From assembly GCA_019307945.1 (NCBI GenBank), contig JAFDIS010000009.1, positions 1 to 64,000 on the forward strand: DNA of 64,000 bases, in the 5' to 3' direction. This DNA comes from Deltaproteobacteria bacterium (GTDB lineage Bacteria; Desulfobacterota; DSM-4660; Desulfatiglandales; Desulfatiglandaceae). The translations under genes and the position numbers were made by a program. Position 1 is the first letter of the stretch; each line of letters begins with the position of its first letter. Below are positions 25,258 through 39,238 of this stretch, in pieces. The notes below the pieces were generated by a model. It was not told the DNA's origin. It worked only from the letters and a program-made list of their open reading frames with translations, and did not search any database.

Positions 25258-27276
25258 TCACGTAGCGGCGCCTGCGGGCTTCAGGACCCGTTCCAGGACG
25301 GAGTCCAGTTCATTGATTGTCAGGATTTCCAGTTCGGACCGGATGTCCTCAGGAATTTCCCTGAGGTCCGCCTCGTTCTTGGCCGGGAACACCACACAGC
25401 GCACGCCGGCCCTGTGGGCGGCCATGGCCTTTTCCTTGACGCCCCCCACAGGGAGGATCCTTCCGCTCAGGGTCAATTCTCCACTCAGGGCCACGCCTCT
25501 CCTAACGGCCCGGTCCGTAAAGAGCGAAATGAGGGCCACGGCGATGGTGAGGCCCGCGGACGGGCCGTCCTTGGGAATGGCGCCCGCCGGCACGTGGATG
25601 TGTACATCCTGATGTCCGAAAAAATCCTCCGACAACCCGAACCGCTCCGTATGACTCCGGATATAGCTCAGGGCGGCCTGGGCGGATTCCTTCATCACGT
25701 CTCCCAATGAACCGGTAAGGATCAACCGGCCGTTTCCCCGCATCTTGCTGGCCTCGATGAAAATGATCTCTCCCCCTGTTTCCGTCCAGGCCAGACCCGT
25801 GGCCACACCCACCCGGTCCTTTGCCTCGCTCACCTCGAAGTAGAACCGCTTCGGCCCCAGCAGTTCTTCGATCATCTCGGGCGTGATTTTTGCGGACGAG
25901 CCCCCATTTTCGGCCTTAAGGGATTGCCTGGCCGTCTTCCGGCACAGGGCGGCGATCTGTCTTTGAAGGTTCCTGAGCCCCGCCTCCCGGGTGTATTCCC
26001 GGATGATCTTGCGCACCGCCTCGGATGTGAATTCGGGGGGATTCTCTGAAAGGCCCGCCTCTTCGATCTCGCTTGGGATCAAGTACCGATAGGCGATTTT
26101 CTCCTTTTCCCGCTCCGTGTACCCGGAAAGGTAGAGGACCTCCAGGCGGTCCAGAAGCGGCCCCGGTATGGGATCCACGGTATTTGCCGTGGCGATGAAC
26201 ATCACCTTGGACAGATCAAAAGGCACGTCCAGGTAGTGATCGATGAACTGGGCGTTTTGTTCCGGATCCAGGACCTCGAGGAGGGCCGAGGCGGGATCGC
26301 CTTTGAAATCCTGGCCGATCTTGTCAAGTTCGTCCAGCATGAAAACCGGATTGCGGGTCTCGGCCCTACGAATCTCCTGGATGATACGGCCCGGAAGGGC
26401 GCCCACGTAACTCCGGCGATGACCCCTGATCTCCGCTTCGTCCTTCATCCCCGCCAGTGAGATTCGAATGAATTTTCGGTGAAGACTCCTGGCGATGGAA
26501 CGACCCAGAGAGGTCTTTCCCGTGCCCGGAGGGCCCACGAAGCAGAGAATCGGCCCCCGCGAGTGCAACTGTCTGCTCTTGGAGGCCAGGGCCCGCTTCA
26601 CGGTGGCGCGGATCTCATCCAGCTTCAGGGGCTTGGCCAAAAAGTGGTGAGAGCCCTTTCGCATGGCCTCCACCGCCGTTGGCACAGTGGCATACCCGGT
26701 TATGATGATCACCTCGGTGGAAGGGTCTTTCTGCTTGGCCCTCTCCAGCACACCCATGCCGTCCACGTTCTCCATCTTGAGGTCGGTCAGGATCACGTCG
26801 TAGTCGTGCGCCTCCAGCAGATCGAGTGCTTCCTGACCGCTCGAGGCCGTATGCACCCGGTATCCGTCTTTGGTGAGCACGTGCTCCAGGTTCATACGGG
26901 TCATTTTTTCATCGTCCACCACGAGCATCTGGTGGTTCCTGGAGGCTTTCAGGATGCGCACGGCCAGGTATTCCAGGATGCGGTCCTTGATCTTTTCCAG
27001 GCCGTAATGCTCCTCGTCCAGAATGGCCTCGGCGGTCTTGAGGTCCAGGTGGTCCTCGGTCATCCGATGCCAGGGAAGGCTCACCAGATAGTCGATATGA
27101 TTGAACCCGATGGTGTACTCGGCCGACGAAGGGCTCATCTTGGCGAGCTTTTCCAATTCCTTGAGCGTAATCTTTTCCACCGCCTCGGGCATGTGGGCTT
27201 TGAGCACGGTGGCGCGCAGCTCCTCGATCTCGCCCGAGAGTTCCTCAACGTCTTCGCCCTTCCTGAATATGCGCAT
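25258..27276 (-). CDS. Lon-family protease with an inserted receiver (REC) domain
   Basis: A 672-residue Lon-like ATP-dependent protease in which a complete response-regulator receiver is placed between the N-terminal helical part and the AAA+ domain. Order: Lon helical segment about 1-112 (no PUA-like substrate domain); REC about 115-232 with acidic Asp121/Asp122, acceptor Asp165 in LTDLKMENVDG, TGYA and Lys215 in AKP; AAA+ with Walker A GPPGTGKT (248-255) and Walker B FMLDELDK; Lon protease domain with the Ser573-Lys616 dyad (DGPSAG, GGVKEK). The REC resembles those of NtrC-type regulators. The ATG at 27276 follows AGAGG. All catalytic residues are present, so phosphorylation-controlled proteolysis is plausible but inferred. 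Confidence 0.92.
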   Translation of the reverse strand: MRIFRKGEDVEELSGEIEELRATVLKAHMPEAVEKITLKELEKLAKMSPSSAEYTIGFNHIDYLVSLPWHRMTEDHLDLKTAEAILDEEHYGLEKIKDRILEYLAVRILKASRNHQMLVVDDEKMTRMNLEHVLTKDGYRVHTASSGQEALDLLEAHDYDVILTDLKMENVDGMGVLERAKQKDPSTEVIIITGYATVPTAVEAMRKGSHHFLAKPLKLDEIRATVKRALASKSRQLHSRGPILCFVGPPGTGKTSLGRSIARSLHRKFIRISLAGMKDEAEIRGHRRSYVGALPGRIIQEIRRAETRNPVFMLDELDKIGQDFKGDPASALLEVLDPEQNAQFIDHYLDVPFDLSKVMFIATANTVDPIPGPLLDRLEVLYLSGYTEREKEKIAYRYLIPSEIEEAGLSENPPEFTSEAVRKIIREYTREAGLRNLQRQIAALCRKTARQSLKAENGGSSAKITPEMIEELLGPKRFYFEVSEAKDRVGVATGLAWTETGGEIIFIEASKMRGNGRLILTGSLGDVMKESAQAALSYIRSHTERFGLSEDFFGHQDVHIHVPAGAIPKDGPSAGLTIAVALISLFTDRAVRRGVALSGELTLSGRILPVGGVKEKAMAAHRAGVRCVVFPAKNEADLREIPEDIRSELEILTINELDSVLERVLKPAGAAT

Positions 27277-27439
27277 GGGTCCGCCTCTTAATGGGAATGG
27301 GGCCATATTAGGCCAGATCCCGGGGGTTCCGCAACCGTTTTCAGGGGTGGGGCGGGGGGCATGCCGATGCCTGACTCTTCACCGGAATTTCAAATGGGAA
27401 AAGAGGCGCACAGGGAACCGTCGCAAACTAGGAAGGTGA

Positions 27440-29653: not shown

Positions 29654-30933
29654 TCAGGATTGTTGGCGCTGTGCCCGCTTTTTGGCCTTTTTCACCGCGC
29701 TACGAATTTCACTGATCCGAAAGGGCTTGGCGATGAAATCGTACGCCCCTTTGATCAGAGACTCCCTGGCGGTTTCCATGGTCGCAAAACCCGTGATCAC
29801 AATAACTTCGCTACCGGGGCATTTTTCCTTGACCCGTTCCAGGAACCCGATGCCGTCGATTTCCGTAGATCGACGGCAGCGTGTCGGGGATTTCGTCATG
29901 GAGCCGTACTTTCGAGACGTTGATATGGTTTTCCGCAATTTTCATCGTCTCCCGCAACAGTCTGACCAGGTCCAATTCTCTATAAGCTGAAGTCTCTGCA
30001 CGGGAGAATTCGAGGAGATTCTTCACGATCTCACTAGCGCGCATCGCCTGCCCTAGGATGTCGTCGAGCAGTTCGGCCTTTTTCTCCTCCGGGATCTTTC
30101 TGCCGCTTATGAGCGAGTCAACCGTCAGTACGATATTGTTGATAGGATTGTTCAGTTCATGCGCAATACCAGAGACCAGGGTTCCCAGAGAAGCGATTTT
30201 TCTGGAATGGACGATCTTCTCTTCTCTTGCTTCCAGTTCCTTTGCCATTCTGTTGAAGGCCGCAACCAGGTCCGCGACTTCGTCCTTTCTCCCCTCTTCG
30301 TCCCTTATGGGAACAAAAATGCCACGAGAAGCGCTCAGGGTGGCGTTTCTGAGTCGCAATATTGGCCGAAGCACATGCCGCGCCACCAGGGTATGAGGTC
30401 ACCAGGAAGAGCGCCACGAAGCTGCCCGGGAAAGCGACAGGGATCAGCCTCATCCAGGTCAGGGTCTTCTGGATACGACTCCTCTTCAGATTGATCAATG
30501 TCTGGGCGAAATCCAGCAGGGACTTTCCCCGCGCCCTGAGACCCTCCACATCGGCCGTGCCTGCCCGGGTCTTGACAAGGCCCATGTTCTCCTGAAGGGT
30601 TCGCTTGTATACGTTGAGTTCTTCTTTCAGCGTCCGACACCGCGCGTCGCCCGCCACCCGCCGGATGTCCCCGGACAGGGCGCGGCAGGCGTCTTCCACC
30701 CGGAAGAGATAAAAGACGATCTCGTCCAGACTTCCCACGTCGCCGTAATAGGTGAAATTCTTTTCATACCGGCGTATCTCGAGAATATTTTTCAGGAGAT
30801 CATCGAATTTTTCGACGGTCCGTAGTTTGTTTTCCAGGGCATGAACGCTGACATAGTAGAACACCGTGACCAGCCCGATAAACCCGAGGCAGATTAGATA
30901 AAAAACGGTTATCTTCCCACGTATGGTATGCAT
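29654..30933 (-). pseudogene. Decayed histidine kinase fused by deletion to a receiver remnant
   Basis: Read leftwards, the first 190 codons give a membrane-anchored helical sensor (RGKITVFYLICLGFIGLVTV, ILEIRRYEKNF). Near 30385 the frame shifts; the next frame gives HAMP and a HisKA box (GTLVSGIAHELNNPINNIVL) and continues to LPSIYGN. At about 29852-29877 it breaks off and a third frame continues with the second half of an NtrC-type receiver (GIGFLERVKEKCPG, VIVITGFATMETA, FIAKPF). The ATPase domain and first half of the receiver are gone. It is a relative of the intact kinase at 36344, sharing the RRYEKN sensor motif. Confidence 0.85.
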
Positions 30934-31445: not shown

Positions 31446-31548
31446 GTTACAATTCGCAACTCCCGATTCCGTTTTGCAACAAATAAGCAACATATTGATA
31501 TCCCGACGAAAATTTGCTCCGGCCCTGCTTTCCGTTGCATTTCGCAAC
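31446..31548 (+). promoter_or_regulatory. Putative enhancer sites upstream of the sigma-54 promoter
   Basis: Two 15-bp inverted repeats of one type, GTTACAATTCGCAAC (31446-31460) and GTTGCATTTCGCAAC (31534-31548), share the form GTTRC-N5-GCAAC. Two further GCAAC half-sites lie at 31476-31480 and 31487-31491. The nearest full site is about 80 bases before the -24 element, a normal distance for NtrC-type activator sites. The cognate activator is inferred to be one of the two encoded at 37877 and 45115. Confidence 0.65.
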
Positions 31549-31627
31549 GAATCCTCCGTTCCCCTCCTATGGCGCTGTCCAGGTTTTCCTCAATTAACTC
31601 AGCTATATATCGTTCGAAACAGCCCTT

Positions 31628-31643
31628 TGGCACGTGCCTTGCT
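31628..31643 (+). promoter_or_regulatory. Sigma-54 promoter
   Basis: TGGCACGTGCCTTGCT matches the -24/-12 consensus TGGCAC-N5-TTGCW exactly. It lies 45 bases before the ATG of the first USP-operon gene, whose ribosome site is GGAGG. Confidence 0.85.
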
Positions 31644-31688
31644 GTTTGTGAATGAGCAAGGGGGGAAAATTCCGGAAGGAGGCACGTC

Positions 31689-31874
31689 ATGTTTGGAGAA
31701 AAGCACCGCACGAACTTCCTGGACAGGATGATGCTGGCCGTGACATTCGCCGAGGCCGGTCAATGGGAAACCGCCCGGCAGTTTCTGGAGACACGGTCGG
31801 GGAAAAAAGACCGCAAGAAAGCCCATAGGAGGGTGGAGAGAAGGTCTGAAGGCCGTCCGGTCCTCAGGGCCTGA
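31689..31874 (+). CDS. Small FAEAGQ-motif protein, first gene of the sigma-54 operon
   Basis: A 61-residue basic protein. Residues 13-33 contain MMLAVTFAEAGQWETARQFL, a motif shared with the next two proteins (AAAAFAEAGQPEIAGEIL and EAIAFAEAGQPAQAQQLF). The motif resembles one TPR-like helix pair. The rest is Lys/Arg-rich. GGAGG precedes the ATG. No family is recognised; the shared motif and common promoter suggest that the three gene products work together. Confidence 0.75.
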   Translation: MFGEKHRTNFLDRMMLAVTFAEAGQWETARQFLETRSGKKDRKKAHRRVERRSEGRPVLRA

Positions 31875-31885
31875 GAGGAAGAGCC

Positions 31886-32389
31886 ATGGAAAAGGTATTG
31901 CTGGCCATCGATGGAATCAGGCCCACCAAAAAGACCTTCCGTTATGCGGTGGATCTGTGCAAGCGGGTCCGGGCGGAATTGAACATTCTTCAGGTGATCG
32001 CCCCCGGGGAGTATCAAACAGTGCTGCGACGCATGGCAAGGGGGGCCAAAAAGGCCAGGGAATATTTCGAGGGCTCCATGGCCGCGGCGGCCTTTGCCGA
32101 AGCGGGACAGCCCGAGATCGCCGGCGAAATCCTGGCCGAGGCGAAACGGAACATGGACCTCCTTCTCCCCGAATCGGAAAAGGCCGGCGTCCCGTGTCGT
32201 CTCACGCTGAAAGCAGGAAAACCCGGCAAGGAGATCCTGCGCTTCGTCCACAAACATCATGACGTGGTCTTGGCGATTTACGACCGAACCGAAGACGAAC
32301 GGGTACCGCGTCCGGGCGCCAGGAAAAATAGGATCCCGCGCGGAATTCGGAAAAACCTGCATGTCCCCCTCGTGGTGGTTCAGGGCTGA
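31886..32389 (+). CDS. Universal stress protein-like protein with FAEAGQ insert
   Basis: A 167-residue protein with a USP-like start (MEKVLLAIDGIRPTKKTFRY, then helix and NILQVIAP) and end (VPLVVVQG). Between beta strands 2 and 3 it carries the helical segment AAAAFAEAGQPEIAGEILAE also found in its operon neighbours. The classical USP ATP-binding motif G-2x-G-9x-G-S is not seen (the region reads ARKNRIPRGIRKN), so ATP binding is doubtful. It follows the first gene by 11 bases. Confidence 0.75.
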   Translation: MEKVLLAIDGIRPTKKTFRYAVDLCKRVRAELNILQVIAPGEYQTVLRRMARGAKKAREYFEGSMAAAAFAEAGQPEIAGEILAEAKRNMDLLLPESEKAGVPCRLTLKAGKPGKEILRFVHKHHDVVLAIYDRTEDERVPRPGARKNRIPRGIRKNLHVPLVVVQG

Positions 32390-32442
32390 GTCACGGGGAC
32401 CCGGCAATTTCAAAAAAACCTACCGTTCTGGAGGAAATCGAC

Positions 32443-33006
32443 ATGAGAATTCTTTCGAGATTGAAGAAAAAGGCGGGCAAGGTTAGTGAAAGGATGGACC
32501 AGTACCAGGAGGCCATCGCCTTCGCGGAAGCAGGGCAACCGGCCCAGGCACAACAACTCTTCCAGGCGCCCTCCCCGGAAGAGACTCAGGATGAAATCAA
32601 CCGCCTTTTGGTAATCGGACGCGAGAGCACTTTTTCAGAGGAGGTCATCAACTATGCGCTGGAGATGGCCAAGAGGATGTCCTATGAGATCGTGGCCCTG
32701 AACACGGCCCCTCTTTCGTGCGACACTTTTCAGATTTTCTCTTCGTCCCAGAAAAAGTTGTGTCAGGATTTCAAGGCGCTTTCCAAAGAAAATGTCCGGG
32801 CCTTTCAGGAAGAAGCTCAAAAAATGGGCATCCCGTTTACCCATGTGATCAAGTACACGGACCGGGAGGAGGCCCTGGAAGAGATCAAACAGGAATTCAA
32901 AGATATCGAATTCGTCATATCCGACACGGAATCGGACCGGCCCGTATCCAGGCCGGAGGGGGGAGAAAGGGTTACGCAGCCCATTTACGTCTACTCCATG
33001 GTCTGA
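32443..33006 (+). CDS. USP-like protein with N-terminal FAEAGQ motif
   Basis: A 187-residue protein. Residues 20-42 contain YQEAIAFAEAGQPAQAQQLF, shared with the two preceding genes. A Rossmann-like USP region follows (INRLLVIGRESTFSEEVINY, YEIVALNTAPL, EEALEEIKQEFKDIEFVISD). The USP C-terminal ATP motif is absent. The N-terminus is basic and helical (LSRLKKKAGKVSERM). Translation starts at ATG after GGAGG. Third gene of the sigma-54 operon. Confidence 0.72.
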   Translation: MRILSRLKKKAGKVSERMDQYQEAIAFAEAGQPAQAQQLFQAPSPEETQDEINRLLVIGRESTFSEEVINYALEMAKRMSYEIVALNTAPLSCDTFQIFSSSQKKLCQDFKALSKENVRAFQEEAQKMGIPFTHVIKYTDREEALEEIKQEFKDIEFVISDTESDRPVSRPEGGERVTQPIYVYSMV

Positions 33007-33158
33007 GTCGAGGAAACTCAGCACAATACACAAGGGACAAGGGAGCAGAATATCTGACTCGTTGCCCCCCGGGCAACGGGGCGGATTTCTGCTTTTTGCG
33101 GTTGAACTGCGAGGGTGAAGGAGTCTCGAATCCACCAATAAATAACAGGAGAAAGTTG

Positions 33159-33239
33159 ATGGACGCCCATTTCTTTTTTGGACTGGCTTTGATCCTTTTT
33201 ACCTTTTTTCTCTGCTACTGGTTTAGGAAGCAGAAATAG
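33159..33239 (+). CDS. 26-residue single-pass membrane protein
   Basis: The frame encodes MDAHFFFGLALILFTFFLCY followed by a basic end (WFRKQK), so it has one membrane helix with a cytoplasmic basic tail. AGGAGA lies 6 bases before the ATG, and the frame ends at TAG. It lies between the USP operon and the SLC13-type permease and may belong to either. Its size means chance cannot be excluded, but the start signals are good. Confidence 0.55.
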   Translation: MDAHFFFGLALILFTFFLCYWFRKQK

Positions 33240-33438: not shown

Positions 33439-35253
33439 ATGACTCCCGAAATGATCATGACCATGGTTGTACTGGCTTTCGTTATAGTCCTTTTCGTATT
33501 CGAATGGGTCCGGGTGGACGTCGTCGGGATCATGATGATGGTCCTGCTCCCGTTGATAGGGCTTGTTTCAGCCAAGGACGCCTTTGTCGGCCTGAGCAGT
33601 AACGCGGTCTGTTCCATCATCGCCGTCATCATCATCGGAGCGGGATTGGACAAGACCGGTGTAATGAACCAGGTGGCCGGCCCTATCGTCAAACTGGCCG
33701 GGAACAGTGAAAAACGAGTGATAACCTTGATCTCGGGCACGGTGGGCATCATCTCCAGTATGATGCAGAACATAGGTGCGGCGGCCCTGTTTCTCCCCGC
33801 CGCCCAGAGGATTGCAAAACGCATGGAGGTACCCGTGTCTCGGATCCTCATGCCCATGGGGTTCTGCGCCATTATCGGCGGCACCATCACCCTTGTGGGG
33901 GCGAGCCCCACCATCCTGCTCAACGACCTGATGGTCCTGGGTGGCAAGAAACTCGAGCCTTTCGGTCTGTTTACGCAGACCCCCATCGGGCTCTGCCTCC
34001 TGACCAGCGCGATCCTCTATTTCATCCTTTTCGGCAAGAAGATCCTGCCCGCGGGAGAGGGTGAGGCGGACAAGGGCGTCACCGCAGCCCTCATGGCCGA
34101 ATACCGCGCCCTGGGGACTGTCTTCGAACTGCATATACCTGAAGACTTCGAGGGCCCCAGGACCCTGGAAGAGCTGGGGATTCGCCAGTGGTTCCTGGTG
34201 ACCGTAGTGGCCATCAGCCATGCAGGGAAGAAAGAAAAGCAATTCGTTCCCAGAAGCAACGATCAAATCGAGCCCAACGACGACATCGCGGTGGTGGGCC
34301 GCGAGAAAAACGTGCGAAAGATGGCTCAGGAGCTGGGATGGGTCATCAAACCCGGCCTGGACGTCTTTGCCGAGAGCCTGTCGCGGACCAACGCGGGGAT
34401 GGCCGAGACCATCGTATCACCACGATCGGAACTGATCGGGAAGACCTTGAGTGAGATCAATTTCAAGGAAATGTACGGCGTAAATCCGGTGGCCCTGTTC
34501 AAGGGGAACAAGATATTTTATGCAGGCCTGACCCAGATCCGTCTTCACATGGGAGACACATTACTCCTTCAGGGGCCATGGGAGCGGTTTCATATCCTCA
34601 AGAATCGGCCGCAGCCCAGGGCATTGAGCTTTGCCACGCCCCTTGAGGGAGAAATCATGCGTCCCCAGAAGGCCAAAACGGCCGTCTTGTGGTTGGCCGT
34701 GGCCCTGGCCCAGATCATTTTTTTCAAGGTGCAGCTATCCGTGGCGCTCATGTCCGGTGCCCTGGGCATGATCATCACGGGCGTTCTGTCAGTGGATGAG
34801 GCCTACCGGGCCGTGGACTGGATGACGGTATTTCTCCTGGCGGGCCTCATCCCGTTGGGAATCGCCTTTGAAAAGACGGGGACCGCGGCCTTCATCGCCC
34901 ACAATATCCTGGCACTTATCGGTCGACCCGCGCCCATCCTGCTCCTTGCGGTGGTGGGCATCATGACCTCCTTCTTCACGCTGGTGGTCTCCAACGTGGG
35001 TGCCACGGTCCTGCTCGTGCCCCTGTGCATGAACATGGCGGTGATGGCCGGGGGCGATCCACGGATGGCCGCGCTCGTGGTGGGTCTTTCGGCATCCAAC
35101 ACCTTCGTCCTGCCCACCCACCAGGTCAACGCCTTGATCATGAGGCCCGGCGGCTACCGTACGGTGGACTACGCCAAAGCCGGGGCCGTCATGACGGCCA
35201 TATTCCTGACCGTGGAATTGAGCGTTCTTTATTTCTTTTACGGCATTCAATAG
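33439..35253 (+). CDS. SLC13/DASS-type permease with two RCK-C domains
   Basis: A 604-residue transporter with two membrane halves (about 1-195 and 410-604) separated by two soluble TrkA_C/RCK_C domains, the arrangement of bacterial SLC13-family permeases. Family marks include GAGLDKTGVMNQVA, IGGTITLVGASPTILLNDLM and the second-half SNVGATVLLVPLCMNMAV and GLSASNTFVLPTHQVNALIM. The RCK_C parts show FVPRSNDQIEPNDDIAVVG and GDTLLLQGPWE. Substrates are probably anions such as sulfate or dicarboxylates; the exact one cannot be told. AAAGGAG precedes the ATG. Confidence 0.9.
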   Translation: MTPEMIMTMVVLAFVIVLFVFEWVRVDVVGIMMMVLLPLIGLVSAKDAFVGLSSNAVCSIIAVIIIGAGLDKTGVMNQVAGPIVKLAGNSEKRVITLISGTVGIISSMMQNIGAAALFLPAAQRIAKRMEVPVSRILMPMGFCAIIGGTITLVGASPTILLNDLMVLGGKKLEPFGLFTQTPIGLCLLTSAILYFILFGKKILPAGEGEADKGVTAALMAEYRALGTVFELHIPEDFEGPRTLEELGIRQWFLVTVVAISHAGKKEKQFVPRSNDQIEPNDDIAVVGREKNVRKMAQELGWVIKPGLDVFAESLSRTNAGMAETIVSPRSELIGKTLSEINFKEMYGVNPVALFKGNKIFYAGLTQIRLHMGDTLLLQGPWERFHILKNRPQPRALSFATPLEGEIMRPQKAKTAVLWLAVALAQIIFFKVQLSVALMSGALGMIITGVLSVDEAYRAVDWMTVFLLAGLIPLGIAFEKTGTAAFIAHNILALIGRPAPILLLAVVGIMTSFFTLVVSNVGATVLLVPLCMNMAVMAGGDPRMAALVVGLSASNTFVLPTHQVNALIMRPGGYRTVDYAKAGAVMTAIFLTVELSVLYFFYGIQ

Positions 35254-35397
35254 GGCCGGGGTGGAGTCTCGGGCCGGTCCCTGCCCGGGCCTTGCCGGAC
35301 AAACGGCGTCGGGAAACATAGTGCCGATTGCGGACCCTTATCTTTCCACAACCCCGTGGAAGTGCGTCCGCCTCGGAATCTTCAGGAGGTTTACAGC

Positions 35398-36252
35398 ATG
35401 GCAGTCATCACCATTTCCAGGGGCTGTTACAGCCAGGGAAAGGAAATCGCGGAAAAAGTGGCAACGGAGCTGGGCTATGAGTCCATGAGCCACGAAATGC
35501 TGATCAGAGAGGCATCGGAAAAATTTCACGTTGCAGGCCAAAAGCTGGAAGAAAGCATCGAGGATGCCCCCAGTTTCCTGGACCGCCTCATGCATGTGCG
35601 TGAAAGGTTCCTGCTGTTCGCCCGGGCGGCTCTGCTGGAGCACCTGGCCAGGGACAACGTGGTGTACCATGGTCACGCTGGGCACCTTCTCGTGCCCGGC
35701 GCGGACCATGTCTTGAAGGTGAGAGTGACGGCGGACATGGAAGAACGCATTGCCCTGGTCACCAAAAAAAGGCATATTTCAAGGGAGGAAGCCATAGAAC
35801 GGCTGAAAAAGGAGGACAAACAGCGGGCGGAATGGAATCGCACCATTGGGAAAATCGACCCCAAGGACCCCTCAGTTTATGATATCATGATACACCTGGG
35901 AAGGCTCAAGATCGAAGATGCGTGCGAGATGATCTGTACGGCCGCCCGGAGCGACTCCCTCAAGTCCACCCCGGAATCCCTGAGTGTGATCCGGGATACG
36001 GCCCTTGCCTGTCATGTGAAGGCCGCCCTCCAGGACTTGTGCAAGGCCCAAGTCCGGTGCGAATCGGGCGTCGTGAATATCATAGTGGAAGGGCAAAAAC
36101 TGAAAAAGACGGGGGCCGCCTCCGGGGACCTCCAGAACAAGGTGCGAGAGACCATTGCGGAAGACCTGGAAAACGAGATTCTGGCCCGCATCCGATCAAT
36201 CCAGGGGGTTGAGGATGTGACGTTCGAAATCGCCCCACCGTTTTATTCCTAA
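35398..36252 (+). CDS. Cytidylate kinase-like protein with BON-like tail
   Basis: A 284-residue protein. The N-terminal two thirds belong to the cytidylate kinase-like family (start MAVITISRGCYSQGKEIAEK, with a P-loop GCYSQGK; then VVYHGHAGHLLVPGADHVLK and RISRE-type lid sequences). The C-terminal part, from about residue 205 (ACHVKAALQDLC, VRCESGVVNIIVEG, ARIRSIQGVEDVTFEI), has the pattern of a BON domain, usually involved in binding membranes or ligands. The nucleotide substrate is unknown. AGGAGG precedes the ATG at 35398. It lies between the permease and the kinase genes. Confidence 0.82.
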   Translation: MAVITISRGCYSQGKEIAEKVATELGYESMSHEMLIREASEKFHVAGQKLEESIEDAPSFLDRLMHVRERFLLFARAALLEHLARDNVVYHGHAGHLLVPGADHVLKVRVTADMEERIALVTKKRHISREEAIERLKKEDKQRAEWNRTIGKIDPKDPSVYDIMIHLGRLKIEDACEMICTAARSDSLKSTPESLSVIRDTALACHVKAALQDLCKAQVRCESGVVNIIVEGQKLKKTGAASGDLQNKVRETIAEDLENEILARIRSIQGVEDVTFEIAPPFYS

Positions 36253-36343: not shown

Positions 36344-37831
36344 ATGTTCGGCCCTAGGATCAGTCTGCGAAGAAAGATCTTTCTCATCTTCACCGTCTTT
36401 TTCGTCCTGGGTGGAGCCCTGTGGTACCTCAACTACCACAAGCACTCCATCCTCACCCAGAAACTGCGTATCCTGGAAAAAAAGGACCGCCTGTTCAATA
36501 CCATTCTCGAGGCCCGACGTTACGAAAAAAACTACTTTCTTTTCCTGGATTACCAGAACCTCTCCGACGCGATTTCCTACGCGGAGCAGGGGGAAAATGC
36601 CTTCGAAGATCTCATTGCAAACTATGGTGCCTTCGCCCTCTCAAAGAACCTGGAAGAGGAGCTGGAAAGGCTCCGGGAATACAAGCAGGCGCTGTGGGTA
36701 CTACGGGGTTATTACCATAACGGTGCGCTGGAGACGAACCAGCAGTTGATTGACGACTTGGCCAAGAGACACCGTCAGATTCGAAGCCTTGGGAGCCGTA
36801 TCACGGGCGACATGGAGGAAATGCTTCGGGAAGAACGTCGTTACGTCAACCGGCTCATGAAGGAATCGCGGCTTTACCATTTCATCTCCCTGGCGGGCAT
36901 CCTTCTGCTCTCTGTGTTTACCGCCCTCTTCCTCGTTCTCAACGTGAACCGCCCTCTCAAGGCCATTGAGAACGCCATAAAAAAGATATCCGTGGGGGAC
37001 TATGAAAACATCCCCGAACTTTCCGCAGGAGCCGAATTCGAATCCCTCGTGGAGAGCCTCAACAACATGATCAGAGAACTCAACCGGCGAAGCGAACAGC
37101 TTATCCAGACCAAGAAACTGGCCTCATTGGGTACCCTGACCTCGGGCGTGGCCCATGAGTTGAACAATCCCCTCAACAATATCTCCACCTCCGTCCAGAT
37201 CCTGTTGGAGGAACTGGAGGAAGGTGATCGGGAATACCACCGGCTCCTGCTGGAGGAGACGGAGGGCCAGGTGCAGCGTGCAAGGGATATCGTCCGGGCG
37301 CTCCTGGAGTTTTCCAGGGAGAGGTCCTTCAGCCTGCAGCCCGTGAAGTTCAAGGACCTGGTTTCCGAAACAATCAAGCTCATAAAGGGAGAGGTGCCGA
37401 GCAACGTGGAGCTAAGGGTGAATATCCCCGACGGCATCGAAGCCTGGATGGACCCTAGGCGCATCCAGCAGGTCCTGCTCAACCTGATCCTGAACGGAGT
37501 GCAGGCCATGGACAAGGGTGGAACCCTCGAGATCCTGGCCCGTGAAAAAGAGGAGCAGGGGGGATTCTGTTTTCAGGTCGCGGACCAGGGCAGAGGAATA
37601 CCGCAGGAAAACCTTCACAAAATTTTCGACCCCTTTTTCACCACCAAAGACGTGGGCCAGGGTTCGGGACTGGGGCTTTCCGTATCCCATGGGATAGTGG
37701 AACAGCACGGGGGCCGCATCGAAGTGGAAAGCGAAGTCGGCCGGGGCACTAAATTCAAGGTCTTCCTCCCCAAGAAAGGGGAACCCATGAATGATTCAAG
37801 GCCTGCGGCCGCCCACCGCCCCGCGTCCTGA
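36344..37831 (+). CDS. Membrane histidine kinase (helical sensor, HAMP, HisKA, HATPase)
   Basis: A 495-residue kinase. TM1 about 11-29 and TM2 about 180-201 enclose a 150-residue helical periplasmic sensor containing EARRYEKNYFLF. A HAMP domain (about 201-250) leads to HisKA with phospho-His271 in SGVAHELNNPLNNIS. HATPase boxes are LNLILNGVQAM, ADQGRGIPQENL, DPFFTTKDVGQGSGLGLS. Its stop lies 45 bases before the NtrC-type regulator, its likely partner. The decayed kinase at 29654-30933 has the same sensor type. AAGGAAAAAGG precedes the ATG. Confidence 0.93.
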   Translation: MFGPRISLRRKIFLIFTVFFVLGGALWYLNYHKHSILTQKLRILEKKDRLFNTILEARRYEKNYFLFLDYQNLSDAISYAEQGENAFEDLIANYGAFALSKNLEEELERLREYKQALWVLRGYYHNGALETNQQLIDDLAKRHRQIRSLGSRITGDMEEMLREERRYVNRLMKESRLYHFISLAGILLLSVFTALFLVLNVNRPLKAIENAIKKISVGDYENIPELSAGAEFESLVESLNNMIRELNRRSEQLIQTKKLASLGTLTSGVAHELNNPLNNISTSVQILLEELEEGDREYHRLLLEETEGQVQRARDIVRALLEFSRERSFSLQPVKFKDLVSETIKLIKGEVPSNVELRVNIPDGIEAWMDPRRIQQVLLNLILNGVQAMDKGGTLEILAREKEEQGGFCFQVADQGRGIPQENLHKIFDPFFTTKDVGQGSGLGLSVSHGIVEQHGGRIEVESEVGRGTKFKVFLPKKGEPMNDSRPAAAHRPAS

Positions 37832-37876: not shown

Positions 37877-39238
37877 ATGCAAAAAGAGGGAAAAACCATT
37901 CTGGTGGTCGAGGATGAGGACCTCGCCCGGAGGAACCTGGAGCACATCCTGAAGAAGGAGGGGTACGAGGTCGTCTCCGTGGAAAGCGGCATGAAGGCCA
38001 TAGCGCTCCTGAAAGAGAGAGAGTTCGACCTGGTGCTCACGGACCTCAAGATGGAGAAGGTGGACGGCCTGGAGGTCCTTCGGACGAGCCGCAGGCTCCA
38101 TCCCTTCACGGAAGTCGTCATGATCACGGGCTACGCCACGGTCAACACGGCCGTGGAGGCCATGAAGAGCGGTGCCTATCACTACGTGGCCAAGCCTTAC
38201 AAGATCGACGAGGTGAGAAAGATCGTCAAGGAGGCCTTGATCAAGAGAAGCCTGGCGCTGGAAAACCTGGAACTCAAGGAGGCGCTCCGGGGCCATAGAA
38301 AGGTCCCCTACATCGTGGGAAAGAGCGAAGCCATGGCCTCTGTTCTGGATACGGTACAGCAGGTGGCCTCCACGGACGCCGGCGTTCTCCTACTGGGAGA
38401 GAGCGGCACCGGGAAGGAGCTGGTGGCCAGGGCGATCCACTCACTGAGTCACCGATCGCAAAATAGATTCGTGGCATTCAACTGCGGCTCCTTCACCGAG
38501 GAGTTGATGGCCAATGAACTCTTCGGTCATGAGAAGGGGGCTTACACGGGCGCGGATCGCGCCAAGCCGGGCCTGCTGGAAATAGCCCAGGGCGGGACGA
38601 TTTTCCTGGACGAGATCGGAGACATGCCTCAGAGCATGCAGGTGAAACTTCTTCGCGTGATCCAGGAAAAAGAGATCCTTCGGGTGGGGGGCGTGGACCC
38701 GGTGGCCGTGGATGTCCGTTTTATCGCCGCCACGCATCGTGACCTGGAAGAGGATGTGGAAACCGGTTCTTTCCGCAGAGACCTATATTATCGACTGAAC
38801 ATCATCACCATTCACCTGCCCCCGCTGGCGGAGAGAAACGGGGACATCCCCCTTCTGAGCCGACATTTCCTTGCCAAGAAAAGCCGTGAGATGAAAAAGG
38901 AGATCAGGGAGATCCACCCGGAAGCAATGGCCCTTTTGTCGGGGTATGGATGGCCTGGAAACGTACGAGAACTGGAAAACGTGATCGAGCGGGCGGTGGC
39001 CCTCCAAAACGGACCTGTGATACTCCCGGAGGACCTGCCTTCCTACATCCGGGAGCTGTCCATTGAAACGTACCGCAGGCCTTCCTCGGAGATTCCCACG
39101 CTGGAGGAACATGAGAAGAGGTACATCCGATGGGTCCTTGAAAGGTGCGACGGAAACAAGACCCGCGCGGCGAAGATGATGGGGATAGACAGGGTGTCTC
39201 TCTGGAGGAAATTGAAGCGATTCGACATGGACGAATGA
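37877..39238 (+). CDS. NtrC-family sigma-54 activator, intact
   Basis: A 453-residue response regulator: REC (1-120, acceptor Asp56 in LTDLKMEKVDG), AAA+ domain with Walker A GESGTGKE (174-181), sigma-54 contact loop GAYTGA (221-226), Walker B FLDE (243-246), arginine finger region FRRDLYYRLN, sensor II in WPGNVRELEN, and a Fis-type helix-turn-helix (KTRAAKMMGIDRVSLWRKLK). Everything needed for sigma-54 activation is present. It follows its probable kinase and is the best candidate for driving the sigma-54 promoter at 31628. Which sites it binds is inferred. Confidence 0.95.
   Translation: MQKEGKTILVVEDEDLARRNLEHILKKEGYEVVSVESGMKAIALLKEREFDLVLTDLKMEKVDGLEVLRTSRRLHPFTEVVMITGYATVNTAVEAMKSGAYHYVAKPYKIDEVRKIVKEALIKRSLALENLELKEALRGHRKVPYIVGKSEAMASVLDTVQQVASTDAGVLLLGESGTGKELVARAIHSLSHRSQNRFVAFNCGSFTEELMANELFGHEKGAYTGADRAKPGLLEIAQGGTIFLDEIGDMPQSMQVKLLRVIQEKEILRVGGVDPVAVDVRFIAATHRDLEEDVETGSFRRDLYYRLNIITIHLPPLAERNGDIPLLSRHFLAKKSREMKKEIREIHPEAMALLSGYGWPGNVRELENVIERAVALQNGPVILPEDLPSYIRELSIETYRRPSSEIPTLEEHEKRYIRWVLERCDGNKTRAAKMMGIDRVSLWRKLKRFDMDE

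Follow-up and report, generated by a model that had tools for sequence, protein, structure and literature searches.

The window, by which we mean the whole 64-kb stretch of DNA that was analysed, comes from a sulfate-reducer-type bacterium and carries on its plus strand a row of genes that opens with three small proteins sharing the string A-x-x-F-A-E-A-G-Q (31689-33006). Gene A (31689..31874, plus strand) encodes a 61-aa microprotein in which a FAEAG hairpin (AVTFAEAGQWETA) is followed by a basic C-terminal tail. B (31886..32389, plus strand) encodes a protein of 167 aa consisting of a USP domain with an inserted FAEAG hairpin (AAAFAEAGQPEIA, residues 67-79), while C (32443..33006, plus strand) encodes 187 aa with an N-terminal FAEAG hairpin (AIAFAEAGQPAQA, residues 24-36) and a degenerate USP-like domain. 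A good ribosome-binding site precedes each of A, B and C, and six relatives within the order have an orthologue of A at the equivalent position. The next gene, D (33159..33239, plus strand), lies between C and E and encodes a 26-aa single-TM microprotein (MDAHFFFGLALILFTFFLCYWFRKQK); it has a ribosome-binding site and no annotation, and tblastn and sequence conservation revealed it in several genera (L036, L037, L052, L097, L101, L114 and L132). Between C and D, at ~33060-33100 on the plus strand, a GTTGCCC-CCC-GGGCAAC hairpin and the T-rich stretch after it may represent a terminator or attenuator.

Downstream of D lies E (33439..35253, plus strand), a CitMHS/SLC13-type anion transporter with TrkA_C domains (Pfam 9e-75 and 1e-16) that is 74-88% identical across syntenic loci of the order. 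It is followed by F (35356..36252, plus strand), a cytidylate-kinase-like protein (Pfam PF13189, 5.5e-38) that is syntenic in L037 and occurs near the module in L039, L040 and L097. The row continues with G (36344..37831, plus strand), a HAMP sensor histidine kinase, and H (37877..39238, plus strand), an NtrC-type sigma-54 response regulator and the proposed activator; H-like regulators, 52-75% identical, adjoin the module in many genomes. On the minus strand, LonRR (25258..27306) is a Lon protease whose AAA module is preceded by an inserted receiver domain (Pfam Lon_C 1.1e-86, AAA, and Response_reg 1.7e-29 at residues 128-236). In relatives, synteny with A-B-C extends to the local HK, the NtrC-type RR, the Lon-receiver protease and the CitMHS transporter, and in some of them, such as L116, LonRR, HK and RR are consecutive and divergent from A-C-E. 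A broken sensor kinase and receiver were also seen between trkH and the promoter of A (29654-30933, minus strand). The pieces comprise an HK N-terminus, HAMP plus HisKA in a different frame and a receiver fragment, with no HATPase match, and may be the remains of a second regulator pair that has decayed, or may reflect assembly errors.

We searched for the FAEAG motif with a profile trained on loci from other families, with the window and its near relatives left out. Applied to the 603 ORFs of the window, this independent profile picked exactly the three genes for which the initial annotation had proposed a FAEAGQ motif, namely A (3e-12), B (1.4e-7) and C (1.4e-4); the fourth-best ORF followed only at 0.19. 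The hairpin consensus is [LM]xAAxFAEAGExxTA, in which F, E and G of the motif are invariant. Strong motif matches (E at most 1e-3) were present in 40 of the 297 genomes searched in the phylum, and the window genome contributed three, in its type 1 cluster only. We then read 52 loci, which were picked for a motif match and not for their contexts. All 114 motif ORFs in these loci are microproteins (50-125 aa), USP-like proteins or CheY-like receivers, classes that were assigned automatically with a few corrections from reading the sequences (L036 B, L105, L106, L112 and L099). The motif is therefore confined to these three protein contexts in the 52 loci, and the scatter over unrelated proteins that had been named as a danger to the idea was not seen. 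Two CBS-domain proteins near motif genes (L060 173-721 and L121 2042-2590) have in the corresponding position an AFAEAG/D-like string, which scores too weakly to count as the motif.

The hairpin fits the turn register of TPRs (small-x-x-F/Y...G...A). TPR families were the most frequent weak Pfam match among 25 motif proteins (TPR_4 in six, best 0.0045), with no TPR match above the Pfam cut-off in this set; A of the window reached 0.072 (14.2 bits against a cut-off of 27 bits). While TPRs usually occur in tandem, the window proteins have one copy each and a stricter FAEAG core. The weakness of these matches and a core of just ~24 residues might suggest that the motif is a generic TPR-like or helical stretch of convergent origin, without a common function. 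We regard this as highly improbable, since the independent profile splits A, B and C from 600 other window ORFs, and since phylum matches as strong as 1e-15 were obtained outside the order, in operonic clusters and in three protein contexts. Judged from the sequence comparisons, the profile results show that the hairpin is a homologous, recurrent element common to A, B and C. The motif family, built on one TPR-like hairpin, appears to be new here.

Few stress proteins are as common as USPs. B belongs to Pfam Usp (PF00582; 35.1 bits against a cut-off of 24, 2.3e-8). No Pfam match was obtained for C, and its relatives scored 23.4 (L101) and 27.5 (L134, a TM fusion) against PF00582. A PDB sequence search with B and C gave no USP match by sequence alone, and a scan of genome contigs with C gave matches in two near relatives only. 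AlphaFold2 models of B and C, which are of low confidence (three sequences as basis, pLDDT 57-61), place the hairpin of B between strand 2 and helix 2 and give C (pLDDT 61) a helical hairpin and then strands and helices in the USP order, with helix 4 and the ATP loop missing. In Foldseek, the B model matched TeaD best among PDB entries (1e-5), and the best matches of the C model were nearly all USPs. These models suggest that both B and C have the USP fold, which they would share with USPs such as TeaD of the TeaABC transporter; in both systems the USP stands beside a transporter. The G-2x-G-9x-G(S/T) nucleotide motif is absent from B, C and aligned relatives. B and C thus differ from such USPs (PF00582) by the loss of the ATP motif and the addition of the FAEAG hairpin, and C also by the missing helix 4. 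The earlier view of two USP-like proteins without the ATP motif is in agreement with the Pfam match of B and the model matches of C, as is its different placement of the motif: alone in A, inside the USP fold in B, and before the USP-like fold in C.

Two cluster types were distinguished among the loci. Type 1, the window's kind, has microprotein A with USP-like B and/or C, and often adds transporter E, microprotein D, the G/H pair and LonRR. In type 2, the microprotein usually has two hairpins, measures ~95-125 aa and ends in FLxxVGLxGVxVxYG; it is accompanied by one divergent and one CheY-like receiver, each with the hairpin as its C-terminal tail, and the clusters lie near another HK and sigma-54 regulator. 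Both types occur side by side in L097, L040 and L102.

A was preceded by a perfect sigma-54 -24/-12 element (TGGCACGTGCCTTGCT, 31628..31643, plus strand), which matches the consensus at 12/12 positions and is the sole perfect match within the 64-kb window. As one-mismatch sites were not enriched in the window (2 found versus 1.5 expected), the weight of this site lies in its conservation. Among the 31 syntenic type-1 upstream regions, 18 have a site with at least 10/12 matches, compared to 2.4% of shuffles, and a strict site was not found in 13; perfect or near-perfect elements occur in L036, L038, L041, L096, L103, L104, L111, L113 and L123. The co-occurrence with sigma-54 promoters that had been put forward as a check was thereby observed in 18 of these 31 regions.

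Further upstream lie palindrome 1 (GTTACAATTCGCAAC, 31446..31460, plus strand) and, 88 bp after it, palindrome 2 (GTTGCATTTCGCAAC, 31534..31548, plus strand), both perfect GTTRC-N5-GYAAC repeats and predicted upstream activator sites. These two are the only perfect matches in the 4.16-Mb genome, where a reversed control pattern gave six. Both the perfect promoter element and the pair of inverted repeats had been recognised in the initial annotation, and the lack of such paired operators elsewhere in the genome supports its description of the module as dedicated. In relatives, the palindromes are found at about -245 and -157 from the A start, mostly paired and 86-90 bp apart, and most relatives have a TTGCAAC half-site ~26 bp past palindrome 1. 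With at most one mismatch (background 0.09 per 500 bp), a palindrome preceded the first gene in 30 of the 31 USP-type (type-1) regions and in 0 of the 18 receiver-type (type-2) regions. Co-occurrence of the motif with USPs across the phylum, as initially proposed, was observed in many genomes, but the motif also sits on CheY-like receivers in a cluster type that lacks the operator. When 24 other genomes were scanned, most of the placeable palindrome pairs among the matches listed lay upstream of motif genes; in G165, the genes downstream of the palindromes are an HK/H-type pair that lacks the motif. The second motif-USP gene of the L098 genome (9608-10756) has its own pair of perfect operators, so that the regulon can hold two operons.

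The same operator was encountered in a sister group of systems. In 12 readable genomes out of the 13 that have LonRR without a strong motif match, the region encodes a fusion of a C-family USP with a two-TM segment and a basic tail, and the palindrome (at most one mismatch) is present in 12/12 of these USP-membrane regions; the operator is the same as in type 1, and no motif was found in the region. In L134-L146 (e.g. L134 7926-8792) a C-type USP with two TMs and an Arg/Pro-rich tail is encoded by the first gene after type-1 operators, with no FAEAG motif nearby. In the USP-domain tree, motif and TM alternate among related lineages (three changes), and in L113 the motif is joined to the TM segment of USP-membrane systems. 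In these comparisons, motif and TM segment behave as alternatives on one USP family. This swap of motif for membrane segment in sister systems is new here, as is the conserved 26-aa membrane microprotein D. We also compared the basic tails of A and the USP-membrane proteins for possible homology. A right-aligned profile scored the membrane proteins no better than shuffled tails; when offsets were allowed, 21 of 1000 shuffles were equally good, and the tail similarity is only suggestive.

The regulators of the window have a published counterpart. In D. vulgaris Hildenborough, DVU3303 (Lon-RR), DVU3304 (HK) and DVU3305 (RR) constitute a three-component general stress system, described in 2011 (PMC3333781), 2015 (PMC4641369) and 2023 (PMC10102598). 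DVU3305 regulates DVU3302-3298, which encode membrane proteins and hypothetical proteins, UspA domains being present in some of them (PMC3333781), and the DVU3303-3305 system is induced by high pH, heat shock and stationary phase (PMC3333781, PMC4641369). Systems in Thermodesulfovibrio, Thioalkalivibrio and Dechloromonas are also mentioned in PMC3333781. Barcoded transposons gave a cofitness >0.9 for DVU3303-3305, which act together, and the anion transporter DVU3299 was important in chlorate (PMC10102598). In the window we found the features that mark membership of such a three-component system: a Lon-receiver protease, an HK/NtrC-type RR, and a sigma-54 operon with B, C and E. Common to the window and DVU3298-3305 are the Lon-receiver protease, the HK and the sigma-54 RR, as well as a target operon with UspA/USP-domain proteins, membrane proteins and an anion transporter. 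Judged solely by domain content and order, LonRR corresponds to DVU3303, G to DVU3304, H to DVU3305 and, likely, E to DVU3299. A conserved operator was reported for the DVU3298-3305 system, and the palindrome of the window is conserved across the phylum. Unlike the DVU system, the window has its HK and RR downstream of the transporter, and its LonRR is set apart by trkAH. Since the gene set equals that of DVU3303-3305, the stress module is already known, and the initial description of an undescribed stress module does not apply to the regulators and the USP/transporter operon, which are the counterpart of DVU3298-3305. By this analogy, the window operon is a branch of the stress-response switch known from Desulfovibrio. 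The undescribed part is limited to the motif and the small proteins, excluding the regulatory system; the publications found on DVU3298-3305 (PMC3333781, PMC4641369, PMC10102598) contain no description of A-C, of microprotein D or of the shared hairpin.

We therefore favour, with a probability of roughly 60%, the reading that the operon is the output arm of a Lon-RR/HK/NtrC switch and that its USP-type accessory proteins are assembled through the hairpin. Sensor G would phosphorylate H, which would bind both palindromes and open the sigma-54 promoter at 31628, as suggested by synteny, operator conservation and the published counterpart. The promoter would then yield A and the ATP-motif-less USP-type proteins B and C and, to judge from gene direction and gaps, probably also E, F and G-H. 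The one TPR-like hairpin borne by each of A, B and C would serve as a docking element, either to each other or to one common partner. The USP domains may act as ATP-independent adaptors on stress machinery rather than as ATP-binding USPs, the most plausible targets being the co-encoded anion transporter and Lon-RR.

A different relation to the protease was also considered, in which the hairpin is a recognition tag for LonRR and stress-regulated phosphorylation of LonRR controls the turnover of A, B and C. Full-length LonRR was present in 37 of the 297 phylum genomes, and motif and LonRR occurred together in 24 genomes compared to 5 expected (Fisher p 8e-16, uncorrected for kinship); in addition, LonRR is often divergent from A. 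However, full-length LonRR is missing from 16 motif genomes, of which six have H, the 13 LonRR genomes mentioned above have no strong motif match, and receiver-type clusters retain the motif with usually no LonRR adjacent. This renders a tag for LonRR quite unlikely, and LonRR as the sole motif partner was rejected as the main explanation because of the 16 motif genomes without it.

For assembly through the hairpin, the number of motif copies is informative. Two to six copies were present in 41 of the 52 loci and one copy in 11, and in several loci (L098, L104, L107, L112, L123, L124 and L126) two or three motifs are combined with a USP in one chain. A contact role is favoured because hairpins found on separate proteins here occur two or three per chain with a USP elsewhere, and because a TM-fused C-type USP replaces the motif under the same operator. 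The mutual contact envisaged in the initial annotation is in this respect reasonable, and motif-to-motif contact is plausible but unproven; the complete one-contig genome G331 has a single detectable copy, and contact between different motif proteins is therefore not a universal requirement. Such single copies, and the presence of the motif on USPs, receivers and microproteins alike, would also fit a hairpin that docks all these proteins onto one unseen partner, e.g. a class of HK, without any touching among themselves. We consider this alternative unlikely, given that copies come in sets with several fused per chain, and that only an HK and sigma-54 regulators, of different groups, are common to both cluster types. 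Returning to assembly through the hairpin, we tentatively extend it, at less than even odds, to the phylum: the FAEAG hairpin may be a dedicated assembly module, with separate sigma-54 stress circuits supplying the microproteins, degenerate USPs and CheY-like receivers that would stack, by one TPR-like hairpin each, into composite adaptor complexes; in sister lineages, direct fusion to a membrane segment would take the place of these complexes.

If this is true, a shared docking hairpin would mark which USPs, receivers and microproteins cooperate. It would offer a way into the output of a published stress switch, the targets of which are still 'hypothetical', and into the action of USPs without ATP. 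In addition, the hairpin would predict partners for many unannotated proteins of 50-120 aa in sulfate reducers and their kin.
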